Part shown: positions 41,538 through 51,011 of the stretch, piece by piece
How the letters are laid out: each line of letters begins with the position of its first letter
Numbering within the stretch: position 1 is the first letter of the stretch
NCBI RefSeq assembly: GCF_014230085.1
Contig: NZ_JACHVB010000012.1
Coordinates: 434,001 to 498,000 of the forward strand
Direction: 5' to 3'
Origin: Ruficoccus amylovorans
GTDB lineage: Bacteria; Verrucomicrobiota; Verrucomicrobiia; Opitutales; Cerasicoccaceae
DNA: 64,000 nucleotides
Position numbers and translations under genes: made by a program
Notes under the pieces: model-generated
Told to the model about the DNA's origin: nothing
The model's input: the letters and a program-made list of their open reading frames with translations, nothing else
The model's database searches: none

Positions 41538-43850
41538 CTATCGGACCGTTTCCGCCGGGACGAGCTGTTCGCGCAGGGCTTGGGCGGCTTCGACCATATG
41601 GGTGAGGGAGGGGATGACTTCGGTCCACTGGCGGGTTTTCAGGCCGCAGTCGGGATTAACCCAGAGACGCTCGACGGGGATACGCTCGGCCGCCTTTTGC
41701 ATCAGTGTGACCATGTGCTCGACGGTGGGAATATTGGGCGAGTGGATATCATAGACCCCTGGGCCCATCTCATTCGGGTATTTGAAGTGGTCGAAGACAT
41801 CGAGCAGTTCCATGTCGGAGCGCGAAGTCTCGATCGTGATCACGTCGGCGTCCATGGTGGCGATGGAGGCGATGATGTCGTTGAACTCCGAGTAGCACAT
41901 GTGGGTGTGAATCTGTGTCTCGTCGGCCACGCCGTTACCGGTGATGCGGAACGCCTCCACCGCCCAGTCCAGGTACTCCTGCCACTGAGATCGGCGCAGC
42001 GGCAGGCCCTCGCGCAGGGCGGCTTCGTCGATCTGGATGATGCGTATGCCCACCTTCTCCAGATCGAGCACTTCCTCGCGAATGGCCAGCGCGAGTTGAC
42101 GGCACGAGACCGAACGCGGTTGGTCGTCGCGGACAAAGGACCAGTTCAGAATCGTCACCGGTCCGGTCAACATGCCCTTCATCGGCTTGTCGGTGAGAGA
42201 CTGAGCGTAGGTGATCCATTCGACGGTCATGGGCTTAGGGCGGCTGATGTCGCCGAAGAGGATAGGGGGCTTTACGCAGCGCGAGCCGTAGGACTGAACC
42301 CAACCGAACTCGCTAAAGGCATAGCCCTCCAACTGCTCGCCGAAGTACTCCACCATGTCGTTGCGCTCGGGTTCGCCGTGGACCAGCACGTCCAGCCCGA
42401 GCCGTTCCTGTTGCCAGACGCACTGGGCAATCTCCTTGCGCATGGCCTCCCGGTAAGCGGTCGCATTAAGCTTACCTTTTTTAAAGGCGCTACGCGTCTG
42501 GCGGATTTCCCTTGTTTGCGGAAAGGAGCCGATTGTCGTGGTCGGGAAGAGCGGCAGCTTCAGCCGGGGGCGTTGTTTTTTCGCACGCTCAGGGTAGGGG
42601 CTCTGGCGTTCGCCCAGGCGGGCGTCGATTTTACCAAGAGCTGCCTGCACGGTGGGGTTATGAACGCGGGGCGAGTGTCGGCGGGAGGCGGTGGCGGCGG
42701 CGTTGGCATCAAGTTCTCTCTGGACGACGGCACGCCCCTCGTTGAGCGCGACGGACAGGATGAGCAGTTCGTCCAGCTTTTGCCGGGCAAAGGCGAGCCA
42801 GGATTTAATCTCCGGGTCGAGTTTTTCCTCGCTCTCAAGATCGACGGGCACGTGCAGCAGTGAACACGAGGGCGCGAGCCAAAGGCGTTCGCCCAACTGG
42901 CGCGAGATCGGCTCCAGCCAGTCGAGCGTGGCGCTGAGGTCGGTCTTCCAGATGTTTCGCCCGTTGATCACCCCGAGCGAGACGACGCGGTTGGCGGGAA
43001 GCTTTTCGATGAGCACCTCGACTTCGTCGCGCGCGTTGATGGCGTCCAGATGCACGCCCTGCACGGGCAGCTTTGCCACCAACGGCAGGTTTTCTTTCAG
43101 TTGCCCGAAGTAGGTCGTCAGGAGCAGCTTGACCGCTCCTGTATTCAAAGTTTGATACGCAGTTTGGAAAGCGTCCTGCCACGGTGCTTCTAATTCAGTT
43201 ACGAGGATGGGCTCGTCGATCTGCACCCACTCGACACCCTGGGCAGCCAGTTCTTTTAGCAACTGACGGTAAACGAGCAGCAACCCGGGCAGCAGGGAGA
43301 GCTTGTTTGTCTCGTCCTTGGATTTACCGAGAATGAGGTAGGTGACCGGGCCAATGATGACGGGCTTGGCCGGGACGCCTTGAGCGCGGGCTTCAGCGAG
43401 TTGCTCCACCAAGCGTGAGGGGTCGAGCTTGAATGCCGTCTGCGCGTCAAACTCGGGCACGATGAAGTGGTAATTCGTGTCGAACCACTTGGTCATTTCC
43501 CCGGCGGCCACGCCACCACAACCGCAGGTTTCAGACTCTGCGCTTTTGGCCGAGCGGCCACGGGCGACGCGGAAGAAATTGTCGAGCGAGTCGCCCTCAA
43601 AGTTCCGCACGCGCTCGGGCAGGTTACCGAAGGTGAAGCTCATGTCGAGCATCTGGTCGTAAAAGGAAAAATCGCCTGCCGGAACGAAGTTCAGCCCGGC
43701 TTGATCCTGCCAGTGCTGTCGGCGCAGGTGAGCGCCCGCCGTCTTGAGTTCCTCTCGGGAGGACTGCCCCTTCCAGTAGGATTCGAGGGCAAATTTCAGT
43801 TCGCGCTTCGCGCCGATACGCGGGAAGCCGAGATTGTGTGTGATGGCCAT
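41538..43850 (-). CDS. metE: cobalamin-independent methionine synthase MetE
   Basis: Transfers the methyl group of 5-methyltetrahydropteroyltriglutamate to homocysteine, using zinc and no B12. The 770 residues are the normal family length with two TIM-barrel halves: N-terminal [19 protein letters not shown]-terminal [14 protein letters not shown] and [20 protein letters not shown]. The zinc ligands lie in [11 protein letters not shown] (His, Cys), a later Glu, and [10 protein letters not shown] (Cys). The neighbouring divergent LysR-type gene and the palindrome between them fit MetR-type control by homocysteine. Confidence 0.97.
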
Positions 43851-43930
43851 TGGTTCGTTATGCTTTCGGGTTATGGTGTGCCCCGATAATACCAGCTTGA
43901 ACCTATGAAGTAAAATGGTATGTTTTCACG

Positions 43931-43955
43931 TATCCATGAGTTTGACTCATGGGTA
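43931..43955. promoter_or_regulatory. palindromic operator between metE and metR
   Basis: CCATGAGTTTGACTCATGG at 43934-43952 is a perfect 8-3-8 inverted repeat, extended by outer TA pairs to 43931-43955. It contains T-N11-A, as expected of LysR-type sites. A looser TGAA...TTCA pair (near 43904-43927) lies beside it toward metE. In enterobacteria, MetR sites are TGAA-N5-TTCA, so the half-site differs. Location in the only shared intergenic space supports regulation of both genes. Confidence 0.7.
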
Positions 43956-43964
43956 CATTCCGCC

Positions 43965-44879
43965 ATGATCGAACGCATCCACCTGGAAATCCTGCGTGCC
44001 GTCGAGGAGCACGGCTCGCTCACCGCCGCCTCAAAAAAGCTCCACCTGACACAATCGGCGCTCAGCCACAGCATGCGCAAACTGGAGGAGCAGCTCGGCG
44101 TCGAAGTCTGGCTGCGCGAGGGTCGTACGCTGCGTCCGACCCAGGCGGGCGAGTACCTGCTGGGACTGGCGAACCGTCTCGTGCCGCAGTTAGAGCACGC
44201 CGAGAAGCGCCTACAGCAGTTTGCAGAAGGTGAGCGCGGCACGCTGCGCATCGGGATGGAGTGCCACCCATGCTACCAGTGGTTGCTGAAGGTTGCCTCG
44301 CCCTTTCTGGCGGCTTGGCCGGGCGTCGATATGGACGTGATTCAAAAATTTAAATTCGGGGGCATCGGCGCCCTCTTTGGCTACGAGATCGACATGCTGG
44401 TCACGCCTGACCCGCTCTACAAAACCGGGCTGATATTCGAGCCGGTTTTTGACTATGAGCAGGTGCTTGTCGTCGGTGACGATCATCCCCTGTGCCGCGC
44501 CCGTTTCGTCAAGCCCGACCAGCTCTCTGGCGAAGTTCTCATCACGTATCCGGTCCCCGCCGATCGGCTGGACGTTTTTACGCGTTTCCTCACCCCCGCC
44601 GGGATTAGCCCGCGGCAGCACAAGCTGATTGAAACGACTGACATCATGCTCCAGATGGTGGCCAGCGGACGCGGGGTAGCTGCCCTGCCGCGTTGGCTGG
44701 TCGAGGAATGCCGCTCGCGCTTCGCGGTCCATCCGGTGCGCTTGGGTAAAGGCGGCGTGCAAAAGCAAATCTTTCTCGGCATCCGCGAAGCCGACGCCGA
44801 CATCGACTACATTCGCGCTTTCCTGGAGATGGCCCGCTCTCATGCAAAAGACGCCTTCAAACGGCCCGTTGGCAAGTAA
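43965..44879 (+). CDS. metR: LysR-family regulator, probable MetR
   Basis: A 304-residue LysR-type activator. The N-terminal helix-turn-helix (GSLTAASKKLHLTQSALSHS) is followed by LGVEVWLREGRTLRPTQAGE. The co-inducer domain begins IGMECHPCYQWLL, matching the MetR motif around a bound homocysteine. The ATG at 43965 is chosen to match family length; an in-frame extension to 43920 would run through the operator. Divergence from metE and family resemblance make regulation of methionine synthesis likely. Confidence 0.92.
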   Translation: MIERIHLEILRAVEEHGSLTAASKKLHLTQSALSHSMRKLEEQLGVEVWLREGRTLRPTQAGEYLLGLANRLVPQLEHAEKRLQQFAEGERGTLRIGMECHPCYQWLLKVASPFLAAWPGVDMDVIQKFKFGGIGALFGYEIDMLVTPDPLYKTGLIFEPVFDYEQVLVVGDDHPLCRARFVKPDQLSGEVLITYPVPADRLDVFTRFLTPAGISPRQHKLIETTDIMLQMVASGRGVAALPRWLVEECRSRFAVHPVRLGKGGVQKQIFLGIREADADIDYIRAFLEMARSHAKDAFKRPVGK

Positions 44880-45120
44880 CTACGTATTTCCCCGCCCAGT
44901 CGTTACCTTCCGAACCTTGTGCGCATGGTTCTCCGCCTTGGTTGGGGCGTTTTCGGCCTCATCGCTAGCCTGCTTGGCCCAGGCGGGAAGCCCGTGCGGC
45001 TCCTGGCTTTAGGGAACCGGCAAGGATGTTCTTCCGACCGGCTTGCCCTGCCGGAAGCAGTTACGGGGGCGAAGATAACAATTTTTAAAAATTACCCAAA
45101 TCGGGATTGACAAGATATTC

Positions 45121-45138
45121 ATGTAGCACAAGCTACGT
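45121..45138. promoter_or_regulatory. MntR-box-like palindrome 1
   Basis: ATGTAGC-ACAA-GCTACGT: seven-base arms with one mismatch around a four-base spacer. It overlaps the expected spacer and -10 of the promoter with TTGACA at 45107, so a bound repressor would block RNA polymerase. Confidence 0.75.
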
Positions 45139-45181
45139 CGAACTGATGGACGCAGACCCTCTGCACATTGCCAAGCACAAG

Positions 45182-45198
45182 ATGTAGCATGGGGTACG
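45182..45198. promoter_or_regulatory. MntR-box-like palindrome 2 (degenerate)
   Basis: ATGTAGC-ATGG-GGTACGC-type sequence: the left arm is identical to the other copies and the right arm has two mismatches. It is 61 bases from copy 1, close to six helical turns. Confidence 0.5.
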
Positions 45199-45230
45199 CT
45201 CCTGCCTTAGGCTCTTTTTATTTAACCACG

Positions 45231-45250
45231 AATGTAGCATAGGCTACATT
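45231..45250. promoter_or_regulatory. MntR-box-like palindrome 3 (perfect arms)
   Basis: AATGTAGCATAGGCTACATT: eight-base perfect arms around a four-base spacer, 40 bases before the porin start. The AGC-N4-GCT core and total size resemble the enterobacterial MntR box (AACATAGC-N4-GCTATGTT). Copy spacing of 50-61 bases suggests cooperative binding. Confidence 0.8.
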
Positions 45251-45289: not shown

Positions 45290-46606
45290 ATGAATCCAGT
45301 CTCTACGAAACACCGCTCATACAACAACACCCGGGGCCTCTTTGGCATGATCGCCGCCTGTTGTGTCTATGCCGGGCTTGCCGAAACCGTCCGCGCGCAG
45401 ACTCCGACCGAGGAAGGAACAGCGGTAGAGGCGCAATTGACCGGAGACGCCTTCGGGGCGGACTGGATGAAGACTGTCGGCTTGACCGGCGGTTGGGGCG
45501 GTGTCCGGCAGGGGGTCGAGGACGCGGGGCTGGTCCCATACGCGGTCTTTACCGGGGAGTTTCTGGCCAATGCCAGCGGCGGTTACGCGGACGGATCGGC
45601 CTGGGCTGGGCTCTTGGATTTTGGGCTGGAGGCCGATCTGGACAAGCTGGTCGGCTGGACGGGCGGGAGCTTTTTCGTCAACGCTTTCTACTTTCACGGC
45701 AACGACGTGTCGGGCAGCTACGTGGGCGATTTCAACGCGGTCAGTAACATCTACACCGACACGGAGTTCAACGTCTTCAACATCTATTTTAGGCAGAGCT
45801 TTCAGGACGATCGCTACTGGTTCAAGCTCGGCCAGATCGCGGTGGACGATGATTTCATGCTCTCCGAAAGCGCGTTCCTGTTTATCAATGCCTCCTTCGG
45901 TCCGCTACCGACGGAGTCCGGCAACATCGCCGCTCCGATCTATTCGTTGGCCGCTCCTGGCGCGCTGGTCTATGTCGAGCCGGTTGAGAACTGGTTCATC
46001 CAGACGGCCATCTACGCCGGGGACGCCGGACCGGCGCAGTCCAGCAACCACGGATTTGACTGGCGCACGGGCGGCAGCGCGGGCTGGGCCTGGTTTGGAG
46101 AGGTGGGAACGCGCTACGATCTGGCGGCAGGCGGTGTCATCAAGATCGGCGGCTACTACGCGACCGGAGAGTTCACCAACTACGCTACCGGCGCGAACGA
46201 GCGCGGCCTGGGCTCGGTTTATGGCGTGATCGACCAGCAGGTGCTCGCCGCCGAGGACGGCAGTCCCGGTCTGAGCGTGTTTGTGCGCGGCGGTCTCGCC
46301 CCCGATGACGACCTTGTAACCGTCAGCGCCTACGTGGACGGCGGGGTGGTGCTCAGCGACTTGTTTCTCGACGGCGATGCTTTCGGGGTGGCGGTTTCGC
46401 AGACTTTTTTCGGTGACGAGTACCTGAACGCGACCCGCGCGGGCGGCACGCCGGTGACCTCCTCCGAGACCGTGATCGAGGCGACCTACCAGTTCAAGCT
46501 CACCGAGTGGCTGGCGGTCCAACCGGACCTCCAGTATGTATTCGATCCTCACTACAGTGACAACGACGCGCTGATCGTCGGCGTGCGCGCCGAGCTGGCC
46601 TTCTGA
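45290..46606 (+). CDS. OprB-type outer-membrane porin
   Basis: A 438-residue outer-membrane beta-barrel with a signal peptide (about residues 1-37, ending VRAQT). It belongs to the carbohydrate-selective porin OprB family: LTGGWGGVRQGVEDAGLVPYAVFTG, then paired strands such as FNVFNIYFRQSF and a terminal aromatic residue (VRAELAF). OprB proteins were named for glucose uptake. Here it directly follows three metalloregulator-type operators and precedes a metal ABC transporter, so diffusion of Mn2+ or Zn2+ across the outer membrane is the better hypothesis. The Mn-responsive porin MnoP of Bradyrhizobium is a functional precedent. Confidence 0.9.
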   Translation: MNPVSTKHRSYNNTRGLFGMIAACCVYAGLAETVRAQTPTEEGTAVEAQLTGDAFGADWMKTVGLTGGWGGVRQGVEDAGLVPYAVFTGEFLANASGGYADGSAWAGLLDFGLEADLDKLVGWTGGSFFVNAFYFHGNDVSGSYVGDFNAVSNIYTDTEFNVFNIYFRQSFQDDRYWFKLGQIAVDDDFMLSESAFLFINASFGPLPTESGNIAAPIYSLAAPGALVYVEPVENWFIQTAIYAGDAGPAQSSNHGFDWRTGGSAGWAWFGEVGTRYDLAAGGVIKIGGYYATGEFTNYATGANERGLGSVYGVIDQQVLAAEDGSPGLSVFVRGGLAPDDDLVTVSAYVDGGVVLSDLFLDGDAFGVAVSQTFFGDEYLNATRAGGTPVTSSETVIEATYQFKLTEWLAVQPDLQYVFDPHYSDNDALIVGVRAELAF

Positions 46607-46661: not shown

Positions 46662-47672
46662 ATGAACCTGTTGAAAACAAAAAATCTATTCGCAAAGAAA
46701 CTGCGCCCGCTGGCGCTCGCCGTTGCGGCTGCGCTGACGCTTGCCACGGCTGTCCCCACTGCGCTCGAAGCCGCGCCAGACAAATACCCCTATACGGCGG
46801 TGACGACCGTGGGGATGATCACAGATATCGTGCGCAATGTCGCTGGTGATAAGGCCGAGGTCGAGGGGCTGATTGGTGAGGGCGTGGACCCCCACCTGTA
46901 CAAGCCGACGCGCGGCGATGTCATGGCGTTGAGCCGGGCGGATATCATCTTCTACAGCGGCCTTATGCTGGAAGGGAAAATGGCCGACGTGCTCATTCGC
47001 GTGGCCCGCAAGGGCAAGCCGGTCTATGCCGTGACGGAGGAGATTCTCGACCAGGGCGACTACGTCATGACCGACGAGCAGGAGCACTATGACCCACACG
47101 TATGGATGGATGTGGGCGGCTGGATCATGGCGACCGATGTGGTTGGCGATGCCCTTGGCGAGTACGACCCGGCCAACGTCGCCTACTACCGTCAAAACGC
47201 CGACGCCTACATGGAAAAGCTACGCAAACTTGACGCCTATGTGCGCGAAGTCATCGCCACCATCCCCGAGAACCAGCGTGTACTGGTCACGGCGCACGAT
47301 GCGTTCAACTACATGGGCCGGGCCTACGATCTGGAGGTGATGGGCATTCAGGGCATCAGCACCGAGTCGGAGGCCGGGGTCAAGGACATCGAAAATCTGG
47401 TCAACTTCCTCGTCGAAAACCACATCCCGGCTGTTTTCGTGGAGACCTCGGTGTCGGACAAAAACGTCCGCGCACTGGTCGAGGGCGCACGTGCTCGCGG
47501 GCACGACCTGAAGATCGGAGGCTCGCTCTTTTCTGACGCGATGGGGGCTCCCGGCACCTACGAGGGCACCTACATCGGCATGCTCGACCACAACGCCACC
47601 ACCATCGCCAAAGCCCTCGGCGGCAATCCGCCCGCCAAGGGCCTTAACGGCAAGCTTTCCAACGGACAATAA
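46662..47672 (+). CDS. TroA/ZnuA-type Mn/Zn-binding ABC transporter substrate protein
   Basis: A 336-residue periplasmic cluster A-I solute-binding protein. The signal peptide ends near [10 protein letters not shown]. Likely metal ligands are His in GVDPHLY, His in YDPHVWMD, His in [14 protein letters not shown] and Asp in LFSDAMGA, that is the His-His-His-Asp set of TroA/ZnuA rather than the His-His-Glu-Asp set of PsaA/Mnt[10 protein letters not shown] is also TroA-like. No His-rich zinc loop is present, which leans away from a dedicated ZnuA. It is separated from the ATPase gene by 113 bases containing a terminator-like hairpin. Confidence 0.93.
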
Positions 47673-47785: not shown

Positions 47786-48598
47786 ATGTCCAAATCCGAA
47801 CCTCAATCCGTCGCGTATCAGGCGGGCAAGTCCGCAGGTCCGCTCCCTCTCTCGGTGCGGGACCTGACCGTGGCGTATCACCGCAAGCCCGTCATCTGGG
47901 ACGTGGACCTGCAAATCCCCGAGGGTAAGCTGGTCGGTATCGTTGGCCCCAACGGCGCAGGCAAGTCCACCCTGATCAAAGCCTGTCTGGAACTGATCCC
48001 ATCTGCTTCGGGGCAGGTACAGATTTACGGCAAGCCCTACAAAAAGCAGCGCTCCGTCGTCGGCTACGTGCCCCAGCGCGAGAGCGTGGACTGGGATTTT
48101 CCGGTCAGTGCGCTGGATGTCGTGGCGATGGGGCTTTATGGACGTATCGGCTGGTTTCGTCCGGTGGGGAAGAGCCACAAGGCGCTTGCCCGTCAGGCGT
48201 TGGAACGCGTGGGAATCGCCCACCTGGCCGACCGGCAGATCAGCCAGCTTTCCGGCGGGCAACAGCAGCGGGTCTTTCTGGCCCGGGCACTGGCGCAGGA
48301 CGCGCAGCTCTACTTCATGGACGAGCCCTTCGCGGCGGTGGACGCCGCCACCGAGCGTGCCATTGTCGCATTGCTCAAGGAGCTGAAGACACAGGGCAAG
48401 ACGACGCTGGTGGTGCATCACGATCTCGCCACCGTTGCCCAGTACTTCGACTGGGTCGTGATGCTGAACATGCGTGTCGTCGCAGCCGGACCGACGCAGG
48501 AAGTCTTTACCCAGGAAAATCTGAAAAAGACCTACGGCGGCAAACTCACGCTGTTGGCAGAAGCCGAGCACGCACTCTCGCAGTTGAAAGTCCAATGA
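47786..48598 (+). CDS. Mn/Zn ABC transporter ATP-binding protein
   Basis: A 270-residue ABC ATPase of the MntB/ZnuC/TroB family. Walker A is GPNGAGKST, the Q-loop [13 protein letters not shown] is typical of metal (cluster A-I) importers, the signature is LSGGQQQR, Walker B is [12 protein letters not shown] and the switch His is in VVHHD. It overlaps the next gene by four bases (ATGA), so it is translated with the permease. Confidence 0.95.
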
Positions 48599-50067
48599 AA
48601 CGCCTCCCGCTCATTCTCACGACCGTAGTGCTGACGCTCGCCGGGACAGGCATGGCCGGAGCGCACGGCGACAGCCCGTCTCCCGCCCGGAGCGCGGGCT
48701 TGTATAACACGCAGTTCGCTTGGCCGTCGATGGAGGACATCTTTCGCGTGGCCACGCTTCAGGACTACAACACGCGGCTGGTCGTACTCACGACATTTAT
48801 TCTCGGGCTCGCCTCGGGGCTGATCGGAAGCTTTCTGCTGTTGCGCAAGCGTTCGCTCATGGGCGACGCACTTTCGCACGCGTGTCTGCCGGGCATCGGC
48901 CTGGCCTTTATCATCATGGTCGCTGCCGGAGAAACGGGAAAGTATCTGCCCGGCTTGCTGGCCGGGGCCGCCATCACCGGGGTGGCGGGTGTCGGACTGG
49001 TCATGGCTGTGAGGAACACCTCGCGCATCAAGGACGACACCGCGATGAGCCTTGTGCTGAGTGTCTTTTTCGGCGGCGGCATCTCCATCCTCGCCATGGC
49101 GCAGGACATGCCGGGAGCCAGCGCCGCCGGGCTGGAGTATTTTATCTACGGCAAGACCGCCTCGATGGTCATGCAGGATTTCTGGTTGCTGACCGGCGTG
49201 GCCGGGCTGGTGCTGCTTGGCTCGCTTCTGCTGATGAAGGAGTTCACGCTGCTGTGCTTTGACGAGGGCTACGGAAAAAGTCTCGGCTGGCCCGTTCACA
49301 CGCTGGACCTGGTCATGCTTGCGCTCGTCACACTCGTGACCGTGGTCGGACTGCAAGCGGTCGGCCTCATCCTGATCATCGCCTTCCTCATTACACCGGC
49401 TGCCGCCGCCCGTTTCTGGACCGAGAACCTGAAAAAGATGCTCTTGCTGGCCGCCGTAATCGGGGCGCTCAGCGGCTGGCTTGGGGCGGCGGTCAGCGCC
49501 TTGTTGCCACGGTTACCCGCCGGGGCTGTCATCGTATTGACGGCGGCCAGCCTGTTTCTGCTCAGCATGATTTTCGGCAGCGCGCGGGGCGTGCTCAAGC
49601 GCGCGCTCGGCCATGCGCGACTCAAGCGCAAAGTCGGCCGCCAACACCTGTTGCGGGCGGTTTACGAGATACAGGAAGCGCATTGTGAAAACGAGTCACA
49701 AGCGCCTGCCAATGTGCCGGTCCCTTTTGACGAACTGTCTCGCAAGCGGAGTTGGACACTGAAGCAGTTGCGTAAGCTCATCCAACGCGCCGGGCGTGAA
49801 GACCACATCGAGTCTTTCGATGGCGAAACTCTCAGCCTGTCCGAATCCGGCTATGGCGAGGCTGCCCGCATCACCCGCAACCACCGCCTGTGGGAAATCT
49901 TTCTCATCACCCACGCCGACATCGCGGCCAGCCACGTGGACCGGGACGCCGATTCGGTCGAGCACGTCCTGAGCCCCGACATGGTGCGTGAGCTCGAACA
50001 GAAACTCGATATGCGCACGGTGCCTGCCAGCCCGCATCCGCTCAACCAAGGAGAATCACTTTCATGA
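48595..50067 (+). CDS. metal ABC transporter permease fused to a DtxR/MntR-like C-terminal domain
   Basis: A 490-residue fusion. Residues 1-25 form a signal-like helix. Residues about 60-330 are an ABC-3 metal permease with eight or so helices ([40 protein letters not shown]). Residues about 346-480 are DtxR-like: a helix [13 protein letters not shown], a winged helix ([20 protein letters not shown]...LSESGYGEA) and the dimerisation/metal motif RNH (His430)...DSVEHVLS (Asp453, Glu456, His457). Compared by eye with B. subtilis MntR, His77, Glu102 and His103 are kept and Glu99 is Asp. The N-terminal Asp8 and Glu11 are replaced by His351 and Arg354. It overlaps both neighbours by four bases. Confidence 0.93.
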
Positions 50068-51011
50068 ACTGGTACGCTTACGATACCTGGATCGTTATTA
50101 TCGGCGCGCTCTGCGCCATCGCTGCCGCCTTGCCGGGAACGTTTCTCGTCCTGCGGCGCATGAGTATGATGGGCGATGCAATCAGCCACGCCGTCCTGCC
50201 GGGGCTGGCCGTGGCCTTTCTCGTCACGGGCACCCGGGCAAGCCTGGCCATGTTCGCGGGGGCCGCTATCGTCGGCGTCCTGACGGCAGTCTTCACCCAA
50301 TGGATCAGCAGTTGGGGCAAAGTGGACCGGGGAGCCTCCATGGGCATCGTCTTTACCACGCTGTTTGCCTTTGGACTGTTGCTGATCGTGCAAGCCGCCG
50401 ACCATGTCGATCTAGATCCGGGATGCGTCCTCTACGGGGCTATCGAGTTGACCCCGCTGGATGTACTGGCCGATATCGAAGTCGGCGGCATTCTGCTGGA
50501 AATCCCCCGGGCCGCTGTCGTGCTGGGGGCAGTTGCTGTTGTCAACCTGCTGCTCATTGTGAGCTTGTACAAGGAATACAAAATCAGCGCCTTTGACCCG
50601 GACCTGGCGACCACGCAGGGCGTCAATGCCGGGCTCATGCACTACCTGCTGATGACGCAGGTCGCCGTGACTACGGTGGCGTCCTTCGAAGCGGTGGGGA
50701 GCATCATCGTGATCGCCATGCTCATCGTCCCCGCCGCTACCGCGCACCTGCTCACAGACCGCCTCGGGCTGATGCTGGTGCTGGCGACTGGTTTCGGGGC
50801 TTTATCGTCGTTTGTCGGGCATGTGCTCGCCCTGTGGTTGCCACCGCTGATGGGATTCGCGGGCACAACCACCTCCGGCATGATGGCTGTGGCCACGGGC
50901 CTGTTTTTCCTGCTGGCCTGGTTGTTTTCACCCCGCTATGGCGTGGTGCGCCGCATTGGGCGTCAGCGTTTGGACGTTGCGGAGTTGCCCGAAGAAGAGA
51001 GACTGGCGTGA
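50064..51011 (+). CDS. metal ABC transporter permease (second subunit)
   Basis: A 315-residue ABC-3 family permease with eight to nine helices (LRRMSMMGDAISHAVLPGLAVAFL; FEAVGSIIVIAMLIVPAATAHLLTD). It lacks the regulatory domain of the upstream subunit. Two permeases (C and D) per operon is the TroCD/MntCD arrangement. The four-base overlap with the upstream fusion gene points to coupled translation. The C-terminal 25 residues are basic and probably cytoplasmic. Confidence 0.95.
   Translation: MNWYAYDTWIVIIGALCAIAAALPGTFLVLRRMSMMGDAISHAVLPGLAVAFLVTGTRASLAMFAGAAIVGVLTAVFTQWISSWGKVDRGASMGIVFTTLFAFGLLLIVQAADHVDLDPGCVLYGAIELTPLDVLADIEVGGILLEIPRAAVVLGAVAVVNLLLIVSLYKEYKISAFDPDLATTQGVNAGLMHYLLMTQVAVTTVASFEAVGSIIVIAMLIVPAATAHLLTDRLGLMLVLATGFGALSSFVGHVLALWLPPLMGFAGTTTSGMMAVATGLFFLLAWLFSPRYGVVRRIGRQRLDVAELPEEERLA

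Follow-up and report, generated by a model that had tools for sequence, protein, structure and literature searches.

The operon for an OprB-family porin and an ABC metal importer in Ruficoccus amylovorans is preceded by three palindromic sites, which are very probably the operators of a small MntR protein encoded elsewhere in the genome (C35:498238-498666); the manganese-loaded dimer of this protein would repress the whole operon. We infer the binding, the repression and manganese as the effector, and identify this MntR as the regulator because the presence of the boxes follows that of an MntR orthologue across genomes and operons. The reading of the sites as MntR-type operators is well supported, and the predicted regulon is of a known kind, with a different half-site.

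Within the 64-kb stretch of DNA that we analysed (the window), copy 1 lies at 45121-45138 (ATGTAGC-ACAA-GCTACGT) and is a single base short of a perfect palindrome. Copy 3, predicted like copy 1 to be an MntR operator, is a perfect palindrome at 45232-45249 (ATGTAGC-ATAG-GCTACAT), 40 bp upstream of the porin start codon, and extends to the 8-base arms AATGTAGC/GCTACATT starting at 45231. Copy 2, at 45182-45199 (ATGTAGC-ATGG-GGTACGC), keeps an intact left half-site with 3 mismatches in the right one, and is predicted to be a degenerate, weak or accessory operator. A preliminary description of this DNA had reported palindromes at 45121 and 45231, the latter with perfect 8-base arms, and a weaker copy at 45182; all three are present in the sequence as described, arms included, and take the top ranks in a matrix scan. 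The matrix was trained on 44 sites from other genomes, with the consensus ATGTAGC-N4-GCTACAT, weak A/T flanks and a training range of 18.8-34.0 bits. Across the 64 kb it placed copies 3, 1 and 2 in the first three ranks, with 34.5, 23.1 and 11.4 bits and the next match at 4.8. The training sites were chosen by likeness to the same pattern, so that there is some circularity in how high the two strong copies rank. Copy 2 falls below the training range and has support only as a weak site. There are three forward-strand ATGTAGC heptamers in the window, one in each copy. Allowing up to two mismatches, the palindrome is found at 4 places in the 4.5-Mb genome, against 21 for a reversed control pattern. 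The window accounts for two of the 4 places, and the promoter of another metal operon for a third.

It had been proposed that the copies are spaced near whole helical turns, but the centre spacings of 61, 50 and 111 bp correspond to 5.8, 4.8 and 10.6 turns, out of phase, and in relatives the spacing varies between 16, 23-25, 28, 41 or 56 bp, with tandem pairs 23-25 bp apart being common. Helical phasing was rejected on both counts. A promoter overlapping copy 1 had also been suggested. Its TTGACA hexamer is indeed present at 45107, but we rejected the promoter itself, as the hexamer has no acceptable -10 partner and the promoter scan found no convincing sigma-70 promoter near the boxes. The scan for terminator-like sites at the boxes was likewise empty.

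The sites are inverted repeats with an AGC-N4-GCT core in a 7-4-7 layout, as is characteristic of MntR operators. The box of E. coli mntH, which we took directly from the MG1655 genome, is AAACATAGCCTTTGCTATGTTT and has this same layout and core, and E. coli MntR is a regulator of the same type as the protein proposed here (its structure, 2h09, is the nearest solved one, E 7e-25). The half-site differs, however, being ATGTAGC here and ACATAGC in E. coli. Among 40 loci the E. coli-type arm gave 0 matches, against 39 for the arm seen here, and it was rejected as the true motif. The core had previously been equated with that of the enterobacterial MntR box; the core and layout hold against mntH of MG1655, the half-site does not. 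Because of the ATGTAGC half-site and the missing E. coli arm, the sites are predicted to be the operator of a divergent MntR with variant specificity, and not the enterobacterial MntR box. The region of the recognition helix also differs, VTHVSVIRALARLE here and VSQPTVAKMLKRLA in E. coli MntR, which would fit a changed specificity. The targets are different too, mntH in E. coli and an ABC operon with a porin here.

The candidate mntR gene (G000:C35:498238-498666), which encodes a small DtxR-family protein, is found on a contig other than that of the window, as the third gene of an operon; the first two are the gene of a DtxR protein that carries two FeoA domains (C35:501028-502050) and feoB. 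The only further site in the genome with at most one mismatch (G000:C35:502022-502039) precedes this operon, 31 bp upstream of the likely ATG of the DtxR-FeoA-FeoA gene, and a genus-mate (L086) has the same gene order with a box at the same place. The candidate MntR is short, ends just past the dimerisation domain and contains two DtxR domains and no FeoA domain in Pfam, as is typical for MntR. Against the NCBIfam MntR model NF008273 it scores 148.5 bits (E 1.2e-43), short of the curated cut-off of 153, which is a naming threshold and not a biochemical feature. The equivalents of D8, E11, H77, E99, E102 and H103, the six residues that bind metal in B. subtilis MntR, are invariant in all 22 MntR orthologues. 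This ligand set is reported to confer manganese selectivity on the B. subtilis protein (PMC2628430), and on the strength of its invariance we predict Mn2+-dependent repression of the porin, the TroA-like protein, the ATPase and the permeases.

We compared box and regulator across the order: of 103 genomes, 22 encode an MntR orthologue (E 1e-28 or better) and 81 do not. Exact boxes occur in 13 of the 103, all among the 22 with MntR and none among the 81 (Fisher 4.6e-11, on related genomes that are not statistically independent), and nonetheless span four families (f1, f4, f14 and f22). The reversed control pattern showed no association with MntR (p 0.32). Cerasicoccus frondis and C. maritimus, of the family Cerasicoccaceae, are among the named relatives. 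Three genomes with MntR (G028, G057 and G072) have only 2-mismatch boxes, and one (G004) has no box with one mismatch or fewer. Among 21 orthologous ABC operons, in which the fused permease is 54-100% identical, a box with at most two mismatches lies upstream in 14/14 cases with MntR and in 0/7 without (p 9e-6). The preliminary description had read the sites as MntR-type operators and proposed a motif search over this genome and its relatives; that search has now been run. Boxes are kept upstream of the orthologous operons in precisely those cases where the genome has an MntR orthologue, so that the reading passes the refutation test set for it there. The mntR gene of most relatives diverges from the operon with the box; in the genome of the window it sits inside the feo operon instead. 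In a wider sample of the phylum the exact box occurs in 7 of 289 genomes, all seven with a member of the close MntR group, and in the one box genome new to this sample the box adjoins mntR. The presence of the box thus tracks mntR, and the box precedes mntR or metal-uptake genes, as an MntR operator would.

Two other palindromes were noted. In a Verrucomicrobiales operon with mntR and a porin (L174:908) the site is ATGTAGT-CATC-ACTACAT, a symmetric change in both arms, alongside a diverged MntR of 42% identity. In the Coraliomargarita group, two orthologues of the operon that lack MntR (L077 and L078) share a different palindrome, CATACTTTGA-N4-TCAAAGTATG, some 140 bp upstream of the troA-like gene; a replacement regulator may use it as its operator.

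The five genes of the operon all lie on the forward strand. The first encodes the OprB-family outer-membrane porin (45290-46606; Pfam PF04966, E 1.8e-54), and an orthologue of it is found behind a box in Cerasicoccus and UBA4506 as well. It is followed by a TroA-like periplasmic metal-binding protein (46662-47672; Pfam ZnuA, E 3.8e-81), whose closest relative of solved structure is TroA of Treponema (1toa, E 2.6e-78). Aligned to TroA it has His/His/His/Asp at what we take to be the ligand positions, and with this ligand set the sequence alone is indecisive between manganese and zinc. The ATPase (47786-48598; Pfam ABC_tran) is of the Mn/Fe/Zn type, and its top NCBIfam models are Mn/Fe ATPases, which it matches below their cut-offs. 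The next gene (48595-50067) encodes an ABC-3 permease that ends in a DtxR-like domain, a fusion of the YtgCR type recognised from Pfam ABC-3 and Fe_dep_repr_C matches and from the alignment, and the last a second ABC-3 permease (50064-51011; Pfam ABC-3, E 1.1e-44). In the fused permease H430, E434, E456 and H457 are invariant or nearly so, and no equivalent of D8 or E11 is evident. Since the His and Glu residues are kept and a D8/E11 equivalent is not evident, the DtxR-like domain may sense metal without being a repressor that binds the boxes. Directly after the operon a frame at 51125-51649 matches only the C-terminal part of sulfatases and is probably a gene remnant.

Under the mechanism we propose, with sufficient cytoplasmic Mn2+ the manganese-loaded MntR dimer would occupy both strong boxes, possibly along with the weak copy between them, blocking transcription from the porin through the TroA-like gene and the ATPase to the two permeases. 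A drop in manganese would release MntR, and the outer-membrane porin and inner-membrane importer would then be made together. It is possible, although we hold this only tentatively, that two sensors govern the operon at once, one being the soluble MntR at the boxes and the other the membrane-tethered DtxR domain of the operon's own permease, with the OprB porin serving as a manganese-admitting channel that is made only under manganese shortage. For an OprB porin, which annotation would name carbohydrate-selective, the system gives testable ground for a metal assignment, and the operons with and without MntR provide a natural experiment on the role of the widespread permease-fused DtxR domain.

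That same domain raised the question of self-regulation. YtgC of Chlamydia joins a permease to a repressor domain that, once released, represses the protein's own operon, and permease-repressor fusions have been reported in 11 phyla (PMC5599777). As the operon here contains a permease with the same C-terminal DtxR-like fusion, its domain might be cleaved off in this way and bind the boxes. The boxes, unlike in the chlamydial case, do not follow the fusion: seven orthologues of the operon have the fusion without a box, so that the boxes do not behave as its own operator, whereas they are found exactly where MntR is present, and also in genomes that lack this operon and in front of other genes. 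We consider self-regulation very improbable and rejected the fused domain as the cognate regulator. We give as little weight to binding by another DtxR-family protein, either the DtxR-FeoA-FeoA protein (C35:501028-502050), whose gene is the first behind the third genomic box, or a 219-aa protein (C12). The presence of neither is associated with that of the box (p 0.56 for DtxR-FeoA and 0.99 for long DtxR), genomes of the Cerasicoccus group have boxes without either protein, and both were rejected as cognate regulator. A Fur-family regulator (Mur or Zur) binding the palindrome is unlikely because the boxes track MntR. The palindromes could also be due to chance, to transcript structure or to the upstream LysR gene (43920-44879), which is on the same strand. 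With 3 mismatches allowed the window contains 6 matches against 5.2 expected from shuffled sequence, a count that alone is not above chance, unlike the exact and one-mismatch matches, which are. However, the boxes hold matrix ranks 1-3 in 64 kb without a terminator-like site, and they are kept in relatives whose loci have no LysR match, on which ground LysR was rejected as the box regulator; we regard this explanation as next to negligible, since it is at odds with both the conservation of the boxes and their co-occurrence with MntR. The LysR gene is divergent from metE (41538-43850) and therefore more likely that gene's regulator, and the two, just upstream of the boxes, are most likely metE/metR and unrelated to them.

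A separate question is which metal MntR would respond to. The sites could be MntR operators with Fe2+ or Zn2+ as the co-repressor, or manganese and iron jointly, rather than Mn2+ alone. The TroA-like binding protein is compatible with this, boxes precede feoB in four loci, TroR of Treponema denticola responds to manganese and iron alike (PMC2628430), and the MntR targets of Stenotrophomonas respond to combined manganese and iron limitation (PMC13217887). Against this, the full MntR ligand set is invariant, including the D8 equivalent linked to manganese selectivity, and one box-bearing operon (L099) has a manganese-type binding protein with Glu at the third ligand. We consider a co-repressor other than manganese alone unlikely but worth weighing, and infer that the effector is manganese rather than iron or zinc. 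Because boxes also precede feoAB genes (L008, L086, L091 and L096), co-regulation by iron is possible.

The other box-bearing targets are metal genes as well, comprising feoA/feoB, the manganese-type ABC operon of L099, and CQNC TonB receptors accompanied by a thioredoxin-fold partner. In the Opitutales such receptors lie directly behind boxes at three loci (L081:1308-3922, L090:5780-8571 and L092:6192-8372); the thioredoxin-fold gene adjoins the receptor in L081 and L090, and the receptor was seen alone in L092. In L071 and L093 the boxes precede small proteins without a Pfam match, which look like outer-membrane barrels. We predict a compact regulon in which metal uptake at the outer and inner membranes, through a porin or TonB receptor, an ABC importer and feo, would be switched jointly. 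Its predicted operator, of new half-site specificity in the Verrucomicrobiota, is here paired with its proposed regulator.

Parts of this arrangement are known from other bacteria. MnoP of Bradyrhizobium belongs to a porin family other than OprB and is under Mur, a Fur-family regulator, whereas the porin here is an OprB predicted to be under MntR. The two would share the theme of an outer-membrane protein for manganese uptake under scarcity (PMC9334652). The troABCD-TroR system of Treponema likewise combines a TroA-type binding protein, an ABC operon, a DtxR-family repressor and an 18-bp operator (PMC2628430), but the proposed regulator here is of the MntR type and its residue 8 is D, against N in TroR, its gene is outside the operon, and a porin has been added. 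In the MntR module of Stenotrophomonas maltophilia, with mntH, mntP and a CQNC TonB receptor plus thioredoxin-fold protein, MntR-box control reaches the outer-membrane entry route, as is predicted here (PMC13217887). In the window, by contrast, the outer-membrane component is an OprB porin that shares an operon with the ABC importer. The Stenotrophomonas study describes the CQNC receptor pair as a module under MntR regulation and notes its synteny in Opitutales; an Opitutales box was not found in the available passages (PMC13217887). A literature search by title and abstract for MntR in Verrucomicrobia returned no matching topic, and one for MntR with an OprB porin and manganese nothing relevant.

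Two further observations come from other genomes. All three Cerasicoccus-group genomes have a box in the gap between pstB and phoU (L087:8621, L088:9309 and L089:9278), which suggests manganese control of a phosphate regulator. In three Verrucomicrobiales loci (L156, L157 and L167) the gene for an OprB porin sits between those for the binding protein and the ATPase within one operon, from which a long DtxR gene diverges; OprB porins recur in metal operons under different regulators.
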